DNA from: Fructobacillus papyrifericola | GTDB taxonomy: Bacteria; Bacillota; Bacilli; Lactobacillales; Lactobacillaceae | Assembly: GCF_018437235.1 (NCBI RefSeq) | Contig: NZ_JAAMFJ010000002.1 | Location: 62,001 to 126,000, forward strand | Direction: 5' to 3' | DNA length: 64,000 nt | Shown here: piece by piece, positions 46,213-50,520 of the stretch | How the letters are laid out: each line of letters opens with the position of its first letter | Position numbering within the stretch: position 1 is the stretch's first letter | Program-made: the position numbers and the translations under genes | The notes under the pieces: generated by a model | Seen by the model: the letters and a program-made list of their open reading frames with translations, nothing else | What the model was told of the DNA's origin: nothing | Databases searched by the model: none

Positions 46213-46689
46213 TTAGCGTATGTTATCCAATTCTGGGTAAGTGTGCAAGAGTGAGTCAACCATCCCCTGCCAAACAGCGGCATCAATCTGCTGGGTATCC
46301 GCCTTCTCCTGCATCATATAGAGGTTTTGCAGTAGGTAGCGCTTGTCATGGAAGCCTTCGTATAGTTCCTGGCCGTTTTCTAGTCGGATCGTTCCCTTTT
46401 GGTCTTTTTGATAAACAATCGGTTGCTCCCAGTCGTAATCAATATCATTAATCAGCTTCTGGTGGGACTTCTCCGACGTCTTATACCCCCGGTGCTGCAT
46501 TTCTTCCTTCACCAGCTGAGTATATGCCTTCAAGTGTTCCAGTGAAAAGTCGTTCAACCGATTCACGGTCGCGTGGTTCACGGCGCCGTGCTTGGCAATG
46601 GCACCGGTAATGGCCAGGCACTCCCGCCACTGGCCGAGCAGGTGCTGCCGAGACAGGCTTTGAATGAGTCGATAATGCCACAAACGCAT
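46213..46689 (-). CDS. Pyrimidine-dimer DNA glycosylase (T4 endonuclease V-like)
   Basis: The 158-aa protein starts MRLWHYRLIQSLSRQHLLGQWRE and continues HATVN...EHLKAYTQLVKEEMQHRGY, the TIGR02328/Pyr_excise pattern of T4 endoV relatives. Such enzymes cut the glycosyl bond of UV photodimers and nick the AP site. In the family the catalytic amine is the N-terminal residue, and Thr2 in T4 endoV is Arg here. ATG 46689 is chosen over GTG 46698 because of the AAGGAG spacing. Confidence 0.75.
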   Translation of the reverse strand: MRLWHYRLIQSLSRQHLLGQWRECLAITGAIAKHGAVNHATVNRLNDFSLEHLKAYTQLVKEEMQHRGYKTSEKSHQKLINDIDYDWEQPIVYQKDQKGTIRLENGQELYEGFHDKRYLLQNLYMMQEKADTQQIDAAVWQGMVDSLLHTYPELDNIR

Positions 46690-46752
46690 GAATTTCACTC
46701 CTTTTTGTTTTCGTTGCCTTTTATTATACGGACTTTTCTTCTTGATAACAGC

Positions 46753-46785
46753 AAAAAAGTCAGTGCTTAAAGCACTGACTTTTTA
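46753..46785 (-). terminator. Terminator of the 46801 gene
   Basis: AAAAAAGTCAGTGCTTAAAGCACTGACTTTTTA hairpin, just after the exported-protein stop on the minus strand. Confidence 0.8.
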
Positions 46786-46800
46786 ATCGAATCCTTTAAA

Positions 46801-47490
46801 TTAATCAAACCAGTATGTGGAAACGTAGGTTCCAGAAGCATCATCACAAGTCTGAATACCAATGGCGTGTTGATCAGCAAGGTCTTGCACCGTTTCCAGC
46901 GAATCCAGGCGCTTCATGCCGTGGTGGATCTCTGACACGTGGTAGGTCCGGCCGTTGACAACCGCTTCGCTACCGTAGCTCAATTGACGAACGGCACTAC
47001 CCGCCTTCGAGGCCGCTTCGGCCAAGTAGTAGTTTGGAATGGCTGACCACTGGAAGATGTATGGCGTCCACCGTGGCGTGTTGCCACCACTTGTGTTTGA
47101 AAAAGTTGTGACGTCAAAGTGTTGGCCAGCGAAGTTGAAGCCGTCCGTGCGGTTAGCAGTGGTGCTTGCACTTGCTGTTGCCGTTGCAGTGCTTACTTGA
47201 TCCGTCGTCGTTGTTTGACTAGCATTCTGGTCATCTTGACTCTGACTTTGGCCTTGCGCATTGTTCTGCGCATCGCTTGGCTGGCTGGCTTCAATCGCTT
47301 GGTTGGCTTGTTCAGCCGTTTGTTCAACTTTGGCCGCTGACGTCGTCTTTTTTGTCTTTAAGACTTTTGAACGGTTGGGCTTTTCCTGTGCCCCTTGAAT
47401 TTGCTGGTGGCCAAATCCGGATCCAGCAGCAATGATAACGGTCGTTAGCGCTGTCACCAAAAGTGCGCGGCGCTTCATTAAATTCCTCAT
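46801..47490 (-). CDS. Secreted protein with low-complexity linker and compact C-terminal domain
   Basis: The 229-aa protein has a signal peptide (about 1-34, ALTTVIIAAGSGFG), a Gln/Ser/Thr/Ala-rich linker (35-115), and a C-terminal domain (about 117-229) with an IQTC cysteine segment and H-rich SEIHHGM. The last part distantly recalls the sortase TLxTC region, but catalytic Arg and His positions are not clear. Both an ATG at 47490 and one at 47478 have fair ribosome sites. Function unknown. Confidence 0.6.
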   Translation of the reverse strand: MRNLMKRRALLVTALTTVIIAAGSGFGHQQIQGAQEKPNRSKVLKTKKTTSAAKVEQTAEQANQAIEASQPSDAQNNAQGQSQSQDDQNASQTTTTDQVSTATATASASTTANRTDGFNFAGQHFDVTTFSNTSGGNTPRWTPYIFQWSAIPNYYLAEAASKAGSAVRQLSYGSEAVVNGRTYHVSEIHHGMKRLDSLETVQDLADQHAIGIQTCDDASGTYVSTYWFD

Positions 47491-47824
47491 GATTTTCTCC
47501 CTAGCTGAGTTAACTTAACCAGATTAACAGGATGAAGATTGCGAAAGAATATCAAGAGATTGCCGAATGATTAGCCTTATTTAACAAGAAGATTTCTTAC
47601 AATAATGCGTCATTTACGAAAGTCGACCGAAGCCGTTCTAAAGGCTTTTTAAAAATGTGAAAAAAGTAAAATGTCAGAACTGTTGCTGATTTATCATATC
47701 CGGGTCAAATTCGGGTATTGCGAATGGGATAAAGCGCTTTAGAATAGGACTGCCGCGACTTTGATTCTTTCTAAAAAATAGACAGCGGTACCTGGAACAG
47801 TTAAAAATTATCCAATTTTTAATA

Positions 47825-47838
47825 CGAACAGATGTTCG
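47825..47838 (+). promoter_or_regulatory. LexA (SOS) box upstream of the Abi gene
   Basis: CGAACAGATGTTCG matches the Gram-positive LexA consensus CGAAC-N4-GTTCG exactly. It is extended as a 22-bp near-perfect palindrome (AATACGAAC-AGAT-GTTCGTATT, 47821-47842). A TAAAAT -10 like site lies at 47849-47854, so LexA would cover the promoter. Confidence 0.75.
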
Positions 47839-47959
47839 TATTATGTGGTAAAATAGGTCTATCAACCGTGATGCATGATTTTTTTCTAAGGAAGTTTCAG
47901 CAGTTATACACGTTTTGGACAAACACTGGGCCCGCTTTCTTTCATTAGGAGGTACTGCT

Positions 47960-48922
47960 ATGCCAAACCATGCCAACTTTTTGGGTTGGGAAGAACAATT
48001 ACATGAGCTGCAAAAGACTTACAACTTGCAGATTGAATCAAAGGAAAGTGCCCTTGCGACTTTAAAGAAGTATGCCTTTCACAGTCTCGTTCAGGGTTAT
48101 TTGCCTTCGTTAAAGGACCCAAAACAACCAACACGCTTCATGCCGGGGATTAGCATCGAAACACTGGGTGTGATTCAGATGCTTGAAAACCGCCTTTCTT
48201 CCGAATTACTACAAGCCATTATCTCGATTGAAAAGAACATGAAAGCCCTTTTCCAACAAGCCATTAGCAAGGAACTTGGTACAAAGGAAAGTGACTACCT
48301 CAGGCCCGACCCCTATCTTTCCTGGAAAACCCAGCGGCAACAAACACTGGCCCTATTCTTAGAAAAAACCAAGAAGAGTCAACAGGTGTCAAGCGATCTA
48401 CACCGACACCGACAGACCGGTAATGTACCACCCTGGGTCTTGGTTAACGAAATTAGCTTTGGTCAGTTTATGCACTGGTACATGATGAGTCCCCTGCCCG
48501 TTAAACGGTTAGTTGTTGCGGACTTTACCATGCCTTTTACTGAAGAAAGACAGCGGCTGGACTGCTTTAAAGAGGCCCTTGGTTTTCTGGTATCATTTCG
48601 TAACGGCCTGGCCCATGGGACGCTAATCGGCCAAATTAGAAGCAAGGCCAGTCTGCATTATGAGCAGATTCAGCCCTTTTACGAAGAAAGCGTCATCAAC
48701 CTTGAAGAATTCACTGAAGGACATGGGAAACGGGACTTTTTCGGCCTTCTCCTTGTCATTGGTATCTTTCTTAAGCAAAGCGAACGGCAGATTTTTAAGG
48801 ACCAGTTACTAAACCTACTGGCTATCCTCGACACCCTCATTCCACTCAACCAAATGGCCATGCGGCAAATATTGGGCAATGCTCCGCTGAACTTGCTGGA
48901 AAGGGTGGAAAAGATTCTTTGA
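47960..48922 (+). CDS. Abi_2/AbiF-type HEPN-domain abortive infection protein
   Basis: The 320-aa protein matches the Abi_2 (AbiD/AbiF) family: early KYAFHSLVQGY segment, central PPWVLVNEISFGQ signature (about 157-169), and a HEPN RNase motif R-N-G-L-A-H (R214, H219). Such proteins act as phage-triggered RNases that stop growth. It starts at ATG 47960 after GGAGG and has a LexA box about 120 bp upstream. It is close to the prophage border, suggesting a prophage-linked defence gene. Confidence 0.85.
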   Translation: MPNHANFLGWEEQLHELQKTYNLQIESKESALATLKKYAFHSLVQGYLPSLKDPKQPTRFMPGISIETLGVIQMLENRLSSELLQAIISIEKNMKALFQQAISKELGTKESDYLRPDPYLSWKTQRQQTLALFLEKTKKSQQVSSDLHRHRQTGNVPPWVLVNEISFGQFMHWYMMSPLPVKRLVVADFTMPFTEERQRLDCFKEALGFLVSFRNGLAHGTLIGQIRSKASLHYEQIQPFYEESVINLEEFTEGHGKRDFFGLLLVIGIFLKQSERQIFKDQLLNLLAILDTLIPLNQMAMRQILGNAPLNLLERVEKIL

Positions 48923-48924
48923 TG

Positions 48925-48962
48925 AAAAAAGTCCCGTGTAATTGAAATTACACAGGACTTTT
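48925..48962 (+). terminator. Terminator of the Abi gene
   Basis: AAAAAAGTCCCGTGTAATT / AATTACACAGGACTTTTG hairpin, 3 bp after the stop. Confidence 0.8.
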
Positions 48963-49127
48963 GAATTGCTTTAAAGCACGATGCCGACTAACGGAAATTA
49001 AAATGCTTATATAATAGCATTTTTAAGTATATGTGTCTGAAAAATGTCTAATTTAATTCCGCCAAATTTTTATCTCAATCACAGAAGTAGGGAATTTTAT
49101 TTTGGAAGTCGCTACGGTAACGACGTT
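48963..49127. other. Probable chromosome-prophage junction, no gene
   Basis: This ~165 bp AT-rich stretch lies between the Abi terminator and the first degenerate prophage-side gene. I see no coding potential, promoter or tRNA here. It is the likeliest place for the attachment site, but the matching att copy lies outside the window, so no core can be named. Confidence 0.4.
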
Positions 49128-49399
49128 TTAATTGTACACGTTCACGTTCAAATTGTAATCACGTTGTAAAACATCAACAGCTTTTAGCACTTCATCTTGT
49201 TGGCTAGCTGTATATGATTTAATTTCTCAAGATATTGTGGATTTTCCTACTTTGTTCCATTCAAAAAAACATTGATGTCATGTTTAAACTCTGGCATTAC
49301 GACACGGATCGCATAAATAGTGTTTGGTTGCTTCTTCCAAAGTGGTTCTACTGCTTTAAAAATCTCTCGAGCTATTTGTTTACTATCCTTCTTTGCCAA
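49128..49399 (-). pseudogene. Degenerate small prophage-end gene
   Basis: From TTG 49399 a frame encodes 50 residues (AKKDSKQIAREIFKAVEP...NVFLNGTK) and stops at 49247. A second frame then continues plausibly (VGKSTIS, stop, EIKSYTASQQDEVLKAVDVLQ...NVNVYN) to 49128. A frameshift plus a nonsense codon would explain both pieces as one broken gene of about 100 residues. Function unknown. Confidence 0.5.
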
Positions 49400-49565
49400 T
49401 CTCTTTACTTCTTTCTTCGATTAAATTAATTAATTCCTTTAAATCATCAGCGGTTGCTAACTTGCGAATGAACGATCGTGACGTTGAACGGTATGAAAGA
49501 TAGCGATTATGTTTCTTATTTTTATCACGCCATTTTTTATTCTTTTCATTTTGTGTTAGTGCCAT
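49383..49565 (-). CDS. Small prophage-type protein, unknown
   Basis: The 60-aa basic and helical protein (KNKKWRDKNKKHNRYLSYRS...) starts at ATG 49565 after a GGGGG ribosome site. Small K/R/N-rich proteins of this kind occur on LAB phages and plasmids. No domain recognised. It is the third gene in a tiny minus-strand operon (49850-49383). Confidence 0.55.
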   Translation of the reverse strand: MALTQNEKNKKWRDKNKKHNRYLSYRSTSRSFIRKLATADDLKELINLIEERSKEIGKEG

Positions 49566-49574
49566 GATGTCCCC

Positions 49575-49709
49575 CTATTTAATTAACCACCAAACAACTA
49601 TCCCAATGGCAATTAATACAATTGTGGAAGCCACCATTTCTTTAGGCGTTGCTTTTTTAATTTCAATAGTGGTATGTGCGCCAGCCTTACTTGTATATTC
49701 TTTTTTCAT
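49575..49709 (-). CDS. 44-aa single-TM peptide
   Basis: MKKEYTSKAGAHTTIEIKK... has a polar N-terminus and one hydrophobic helix (about 25-42) ending WWLIK. It starts at ATG 49709 with a weak ribosome site. It lies between the 29-aa and 60-aa ORFs. It resembles small membrane peptides of phages and type I toxins only in general layout. Confidence 0.5.
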   Translation of the reverse strand: MKKEYTSKAGAHTTIEIKKATPKEMVASTIVLIAIGIVVWWLIK

Positions 49710-49962: not shown

Positions 49963-50520
49963 CTAACGAATCCATTTCATTGATTTTATTTCTGTTAATC
50001 TACGTTCTGTAAATATATTAGGAGTTTTTCGAACATGAAGAGTAGCAGGAACATAATATCCCTTATTATTTGGAGAAAATCCTATTAACACCATTCTTTT
50101 CTTTCGTTCGTCTAGATAATCATAAATAAGAAATTCAACATTTCCAAGACGAGGAGGACGAATATCTTTAGTTATAACCATTAACTGTGACGAATTTTTT
50201 TGGAAGACTTCATTTAAAAAACTATGATACTTCATTCTATCCTTAATTTTTTCTCCAAAAGATAAATCTTTTTTAATATCATCTAGCGTTAAATCACCAG
50301 ATTTTATTAATTCGATAATATGACTAGCCGACCTGCGTTTTGATAAATACTGAAGTCCTAGAAGATGCGGAATATCTAAAATATCAAAGTTAATCACTAT
50401 ATTTTGAAGCGGTTTAAAATTAGTTGTAATTTCTACTGTGTGTCCGTGATAATCACGATCATAGTTATCGACAATTTCTTTTAATGTATTCAATTCTAAG
50501 TAATCAAAGGATCTATACAC
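49963..50520 (-). CDS. PBECR4-like (BECR-fold) nuclease, candidate toxin
   Basis: The 185-aa protein starts at GTG 50520 after GGAG. It shows the order of conserved segments I associate with the PBECR4 domain: IPHLLGLQYL (50-59), IIELIKSGDLTLDDIKK (68-84), KIKDRMKYHSFLNEVF (91-106) and YYVPATLHVRKTPNIF (155-170). PBECR domains are BECR-fold RNases found in polymorphic toxins and phages. It is separated from an upstream terminator by about 13 nt and so depends on read-through from the RNA gene at 50533-50709. This is the toxin of a proposed RNA-antitoxin module. Confidence 0.65.
   Translation of the reverse strand: MYRSFDYLELNTLKEIVDNYDRDYHGHTVEITTNFKPLQNIVINFDILDIPHLLGLQYLSKRRSASHIIELIKSGDLTLDDIKKDLSFGEKIKDRMKYHSFLNEVFQKNSSQLMVITKDIRPPRLGNVEFLIYDYLDERKKRMVLIGFSPNNKGYYVPATLHVRKTPNIFTERRLTEIKSMKWIR

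Follow-up and report, generated by a model that had tools for sequence, protein, structure and literature searches.

AbiF proteins are held to be the ancestors of the Cas13 RNases, and the available portion of the report on AbiF-RCd22 from the C. difficile phage phi027 describes a protein, AbiFCd, that inhibits growth and loses this effect upon mutation of R202/H207 (PMC12373285). The same portion describes a terminator-ended RNA of ~100-132 nt that lies 5′ of the gene, shares a promoter with it and neutralises its product; the words SOS and LexA have no occurrence in the main text of that paper (PMC12373285). Toxins placed under the DNA-damage response are represented in E. coli by tisB, symE and dinQ, characterised in the part of the source available as LexA-controlled, damage-induced type I toxins with antisense RNA antitoxins (PMC4147584). 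The E. coli AbpAB system provides a DNA-damage-triggered abortive defence, whose activation by mitomycin C is given in the accessible part of its description as independent of RecA and LexA (PMC10732053). Here we describe an abiF gene of Fructobacillus that, judging from comparative sequence analysis, probably encodes a LexA-repressed, SOS-induced RNase, belongs to the regulon of the host and has exchanged an attenuator-type RNA antitoxin for LexA.

Results

The abiF gene and its predicted promoter

The gene lies in the window (the whole 64,000-nt stretch of DNA analysed) among the following features.

46801-47490, divergent: secreted-protein gene, start ~335 bp from the LexA box
47718-47745, + strand: second promoter-like element TTGCGA-N16-TAGAAT, 85 nt 5′ of the box
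47825-47838, no strand assigned: predicted LexA operator CGAACAGATGTTCG, core of the longer imperfect palindrome AATACGAACAGATGTTCGTATT
47846-47854, + strand: extended −10 element TGGTAAAAT, TGnTAAA in 6/6 orthologues, 6-7 nt 3′ of the box
47861-47959, + strand: 5′ leader of abiF, its first base predicted from the −10 element; unconserved, with no strong terminator-like hairpin
47947-47952, + strand: ribosome-binding site AGGAGG
47960-48922, + strand: abiF, coding for a 320-aa Abi_2/AbiF HEPN RNase-like protein (the coordinates include the stop codon)
48599-48616, + strand: HEPN motif R214-N-G-L-A-H219 (RNGLAH)
48926-48964, + strand: terminator-like hairpin 3′ of abiF, read by eye
48981-48995, no strand assigned: attL core ATGCCGACTAACGGA, 15 bp, 58 bp past the end of abiF

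The sequence-only reading had named the product an Abi_2/AbiF HEPN protein with the catalytic pair R214/H219, an identification borne out by matches to Pfam Abi_2 (E 5e-19), PADLOC AbiD (2.3e-26) and PHROG 2158 (1.8e-40), by the RNGLAH motif and by the fold. An AlphaFold2 model of mean pLDDT 92.9 matched PDB entry 8vz6 (PbAbiF:ncRNA) in Foldseek with E 6.5e-6; the two structures aligned with Z 20.7 over 288 residues at 15% identity, and the next best match, Cas13d, reached Z 9.8. The Abi_2 domain, the HEPN RNxxxH motif and the AbiF fold together place the protein in the Abi_2/AbiF (AbiD/F) family.

The SOS box that the same reading had claimed upstream of the gene is present at 47825-47838, its last base 121 bp and its centre ~128 bp 5′ of the ATG at 47960. 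Its description as an exact match to the Gram-positive SOS box holds with one qualification: the box CGAACAGATGTTCG is a perfect CGAACN4GTTCG palindrome but has one mismatch to CGAACRNRYGTTYC, the B. subtilis LexA box form. In its own genome it is letter-identical to the box of a umuC-like gene, and it covers the −35 place of the abiF promoter. The TAGAA part of the second promoter-like element was kept in 6/6 orthologues and its −35 part was poor in F. papyriferae; a putative RNA running from this element (47718-47745) to the LexA box is possible.

The box is tied to abiF orthologues

Full-length abiF orthologues were found in 5 of the 12 other Fructobacillus genomes (F. parabroussonetiae, F. 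papyriferae, F. durionis, F. fructosus and Fructobacillus sp. CRL 2054), with 47-64% identity to the window protein; the gene is thus present in 6/13 genomes, including its own, and absent from 7/13. A perfect box was located 71-135 nt 5′ of the matched start in all six orthologues, where the ten half-site bases and TGnTAAA are invariant and only one of the four central bases is constant. Invariant columns across the six species amounted to 79% of the box, 1% of the leader and 7% of the stretch 5′ of the box. The synonymous sites of abiF in this group are near saturation (pS 0.69-0.88), and therefore the conservation of the box is most simply explained by selection. At the protein level, R214, N215, A218 and H219 are invariant among the six AbiFs, and dN/dS was 0.08-0.18 in the 4/15 pairs where it could be estimated.

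The box was not found at AbiF genes outside this group. G002, the only genome checked that has the divergent neighbour and no abiF orthologue, has no box there. Among 24 other AbiFs of the family Lactobacillaceae, taken from the best-scoring part of the matches (55/397 genomes matched), none had, up to 320 nt from the matched start, a box with ≤2 mismatches; for L031 this stretch falls inside the reading frame. Likewise, no box with ≤1 mismatch was detected at 30 sampled Bacilli AbiF loci, for which frame and start were set by rule (visibly wrongly for at least L159 and L161) and which include one locus, L150, with only 226 nt upstream. With LexA encoded in these genomes and a predicted operator lying over the promoter and conserved in orthologues, as in a LexA regulon, LexA control of abiF is well supported by comparison.

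LexA boxes across Fructobacillus genomes

LexA (TIGR00498, over the family cut-off) is encoded in 13/13 Fructobacillus genomes. The pattern CGAACN4GTTCG occurred at 8 sites in the genome that carries the window (1.297 Mb), where the reversed control pattern has 2, and at 63 sites against 28 over all 13 genomes; in four of the 13 it was no commoner than the control, and many individual sites may be chance hits. Because the count of the pattern alone is only about double that of the control, the LexA claim is carried by the placement and conservation of the boxes. Among the 62 perfect sites examined out of 63 (one, G006:C42, stands outside the classification), 45 precede recA (13 sites, in 13/13 genomes), umuC-like polymerase genes (15 sites, 12/13 genomes), abiF (6 sites), an ORF of 107 aa (6 sites) or an HTH ORF (5 sites). 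The other 17 comprise 5 before infC, 3 before xseA and 9 elsewhere. A one-mismatch box accompanies lexA in 7/7 loci looked at (of 13). The genes next to boxes in the own genome were assigned by Pfam (RecA, IMS polymerase, HTH_3, IF-3, exonuclease VII, guanylate kinase), and those in other genomes by protein similarity.

The fraction of complementary pairs among the first five flank pairs of the box was 0.77 at abiF (6 sites) and 0.60 at the HTH ORF (5), compared to 0.49 at umuC (15 sites), 0.40 at the 107-aa ORF (6) and 0.23 at recA (13). The greater symmetry at abiF than at recA and umuC fits an operator preference and an RNA hairpin alike.

Several box-bearing genes deserve mention in their own right. 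The 107-aa ORF (L006, 1548-1868, + strand; own contig C2 near 2640) matches no Pfam family and is a candidate novel SOS effector; in 6/13 Fructobacillus genomes it is preceded by a perfect LexA box and runs divergently to guanylate kinase. An HTH_3 regulator (L008, 1089-1403, − strand; own contig C3 near 54623) stands under a perfect box in 5/13 genomes. Palindromes of the CGAACTTCGGTTCG type occur 5′ of infC in five genomes (L098, L111, L113, L122, L003) and more probably belong to a leader hairpin than act as LexA boxes.

The leader and the missing terminator

The ~120-nt leader had been singled out for inspection with ncRNA antitoxins in mind, and the idea that it hides one found no support: the leader is almost without invariant columns, folds in an ordinary way and contains no strong terminator-like hairpin. 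Its folding was no stronger than that of mononucleotide shuffles in 6/6 species, and in one of the six it is as short as ~40 nt. Upstream folding without the box gave z of +1.00 to −1.72 versus mononucleotide shuffles, and inclusion of the box brought CRL 2054 to z −4.5 and F. fructosus to z −4.6 through the LexA palindrome. RNAalifold recovered the same palindrome 5′ of the leader, its flanks pairing and having both partners altered at 3 pairs, and neither it nor folding revealed a common structure beyond the palindrome in that upstream region of the six species.

The 23 AbiFs of the family outside the LexA-box group that entered the terminator test (L031 was left out) all have a terminator-like hairpin of ≤−14.9 kcal/mol within 300 nt upstream. 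These hairpins, of −14.9 to −29.6 kcal/mol and followed by T-runs, include those of L015 and L016, and for L023 the best one lies 255 nt upstream, with a nearer hairpin of −20.0. We refer to such loci (L015-L038) as RNA-type, a label given by hairpins and layout only. Between box and ATG of the LexA-box group, by comparison, no hairpin exceeded −5.6 kcal/mol in strength in 6/6 members and none reached −10, although the comparison is asymmetric in that over the whole 300 nt upstream 2/6 members also reach −14.9. One of these is F. papyriferae, whose −15.8 hairpin lies 5′ of the box, and the other F. fructosus, whose −15.1 hairpin is the LexA palindrome itself; the palindrome stretch in the own genome, F. 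durionis and CRL 2054 gave −10.7 to −11.0. A terminator-ended ncRNA between promoter and gene, the layout of AbiF-ncRNA loci, was thus indicated by the hairpins in 0/6 members. The RNA layout is less plain in the Bacilli sample, where only 18/30 AbiFs reach −14 kcal/mol.

An Rfam search of window positions 46700-49600 returned no match to RF03085 or another abiF RNA, and none was found at 18 related loci. The model also missed 13/13 RNA-type loci, so its silence on the LexA-box group says little. Searched over 13 genomes with 150 candidates each, RF03085 yielded sub-threshold matches only, as it did in 6/14 control genomes; the best match in the own genome (L047) reads by eye as coding sequence and was rejected. 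The upstream alignment of RNA-type loci, at 35% mean identity, was too poor for a covariance model.

A single clade beside RNA-type AbiFs

In a midpoint-rooted maximum-likelihood tree of 27 proteins, the six LexA-box AbiFs were monophyletic (97/95) and joined the RNA-type L015 at 100/100, beside other RNA-type AbiFs; L016, L026 and L031 were left out of the tree and of the residue comparison. One LexA clade placed beside RNA-type AbiFs fits a single regulatory swap, the evidence for which consists of six genomes, one clade and a single event. As the tree was rooted at the midpoint only, we infer the direction of the change, from RNA-type to LexA control, from the prevalence of the RNA type.

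Two residues of the YYxLxNGY stretch separate the groups: Y41 is kept in 19/21 and N45 in 20/21 RNA-type AbiFs, compared to 1/6 each in the LexA clade. Both are present in L015 and in the fragment L016, which are close relatives of the LexA clade in the same genus and have the RNA-type upstream hairpin. The AbiF match of L016 (G011:C25) breaks off after ~92 residues near a contig end. R20 was rejected as a mark of the swap, being already lost in the RNA-type L015. The mean protein net charge was −1.0 in the LexA clade versus +4.7 in RNA-type AbiFs, with overlapping ranges.

abiF is host DNA next to a phage integration site

The gene had also been placed beside a prophage border, and the attL core 58 bp past its end agrees with this; the prophage, however, is a neighbour of abiF and not its carrier. 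The attR copy of ATGCCGACTAACGGA lies in the tRNA-Thr 3′ end, beyond the window at 86730-86744 in continued window coordinates, and a prophage of ~37.8 kb (48981 to 86744 in the same numbering) separates abiF from that tRNA. At its left end the prophage carries a PBECR4 nuclease-like gene (49966-50520), with endolysin and holin genes further in, and a protein encoded inside it at C2:143283 shows weak similarity to LexA (55 bits, under the cut-off). In three of the species this side of abiF could be seen free of a prophage (L039, L040 and L041), and there the gene is followed by a tRNA-Thr/tRNA-Leu pair. Because abiF lies outside attL-attR, and so is not prophage cargo (a moron), and because it has the same neighbours on its other side in six species, it is syntenic host DNA adjoining a site of phage integration. 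The common gene order is Pyr_excise, secreted protein and abiF, with the secreted-protein gene in two pieces in F. fructosus. No abiF relative was found in viral contigs, and the matches in phage (32) and plasmid (3) records were distant AbiFs only, all below 60% identity; arrival with an earlier element is speculation.

The Pyr_excise (PF03013) pyrimidine-dimer glycosylase-like gene (46213-46698, − strand), two genes from abiF, is found at the corresponding position in G002 as well as in the six species, which places a gene for DNA repair close to a predicted SOS gene. The 5′ region of the secreted-protein gene (47491-47640) has 61% of its positions the same in at least 5/6 species, a conserved stretch longer than a plain promoter.

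Discussion

The proposed model is as follows. LexA at 47825-47838 would cover the −35 region of the extended −10 promoter and keep abiF off. DNA damage, including that from phage or prophage induction, would activate RecA and lead to LexA cleavage. AbiF would then be produced and would act as an HEPN RNase dimer to slow or stop growth until LexA returns. It would serve both as an SOS checkpoint and in abortive defence, and in the LexA clade LexA repression would have replaced the attenuator-type RNA antitoxin of other AbiFs. Comparison supports the predicted operator, the promoter geometry, the regulon, the clade, the synteny, the catalytic motif, the fold and the missing RNA or terminator in its usual place; beyond these, we infer LexA binding, induction, the dimer, RNase activity, growth arrest and the benefit in defence. 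We lean, if only slightly, towards the further claim that this AbiF lineage has no RNA antitoxin and is governed by LexA only, following a single swap to SOS repression.

That claim would fail under dual control of the kind described for tisB and IstR-1, in which the LexA promoter would be combined with a diverged, constitutive antitoxin RNA running from TAGAAT (47740) to the box. The TAGAA element is found in 6/6 orthologues, mostly with a −35-like part, the 961 bp inspected in the orthologue-less G002 contain no TTAGAA, the −15.8 hairpin of F. papyriferae overlaps the element, and SOS toxins with RNA antitoxins have a precedent in the available part of PMC4147584. Yet only 7% of columns between TAGAAT and the box are invariant, folding without the box stays within z +1.00 to −1.72, the one shared structure is the LexA palindrome, and Y41 and N45, present in 19 and 20, respectively, of the 21 RNA-type AbiFs compared, survive in 1/6 each of the clade, all of which makes such an RNA rather unlikely. 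We also regard it as quite unlikely that LexA-controlled AbiF serves mainly to limit the escape of resident prophages, the shared damage trigger allowing it to spoil the burst. A prophage of 37.8 kb does occupy the tRNA-Thr beside abiF in the own genome and encodes the weak LexA-like protein at C2:143283 (55 bits, under the cut-off), related phage genes adjoin abiF in F. fructosus, and ~160-270 bp resembling the prophage right end lie between abiF and the tRNA in F. parabroussonetiae and F. papyriferae. CRL 2054, however, has kept abiF and its box with no such phage sequence between gene and tRNA, and prophage limitation would fall under the main model as a special case, with no difference in regulation.

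Finally, a reading of the box as a palindrome arisen by chance, or as a site acting on the divergent gene for the secreted protein (46801-47490), is very improbable: the two genes do share the intergenic region, and the pattern outnumbers its control only about twofold, but the box is conserved in 6/6 orthologues at a near-fixed spacing to a rightward extended −10 element and ~335 bp from the divergent start, and G002 has the divergent gene with neither orthologue nor box. We retain LexA repression of an AbiF RNase as the preferred model.

The RNA of AbiF may act purely as an inhibitor, or may in addition serve as guide or cofactor. If the reading of a lineage governed by LexA only is true, AbiF activity needs an ncRNA neither as guide nor as cofactor, and DNA damage is the trigger of a Cas13-related RNase. 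A natural AbiF clade lacking the usual RNA and placed under an SOS operator would allow the guide or cofactor role to be tested against an RNA-bearing relative of the same genus, and the arrangement suggests that abortive-defence toxins can enter the core DNA-damage response.

SOS control of a toxin is already known and not new, because LexA-driven toxins with RNA antitoxins have been described in E. coli (PMC4147584, in the part available). An AbiF whose RNA has given way to SOS control did not turn up in the literature searched, nor was AbiF or Abi_2 under LexA control among the matches listed, judged mostly by title. The combination of AbiF and LexA returned Drosophila matches only, HEPN with LexA and the SOS response returned nothing on AbiF by title or abstract start, and the matches listed for Abi_2 and LexA concerned mostly plant ABI2; the one bacterial paper with both terms names the genes separately in its available part. 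Fructobacillus with the SOS response returned infant gut metaproteomics only.

The locus can thus be set against the described systems, as far as the available parts of their reports go. It resembles AbiF-RCd22 in having an Abi_2/AbiF HEPN protein with RNxxxH (PMC12373285). The two differ in that AbiF-RCd22 has a prophage gene whose product is neutralised by RNA, whereas the Fructobacillus abiF is a host gene with a predicted LexA operator and its own promoter, and the LexA clade, unlike AbiF-RCd22 with its terminator (PMC12373285), has no strong hairpin from promoter to gene. PbAbiF:ncRNA (8vz6) has the same fold at 15% identity, but for its RNA we found no equivalent at the Fructobacillus locus. 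AbpAB shares the damage-triggered abortive defence, proposed here, and is activated by mitomycin C without need of RecA or LexA (PMC10732053). The tisB, symE and dinQ genes are alike in placing a toxin gene under LexA, predicted in our case, but here the toxin would be an Abi_2 HEPN protein, and no antitoxin was found.
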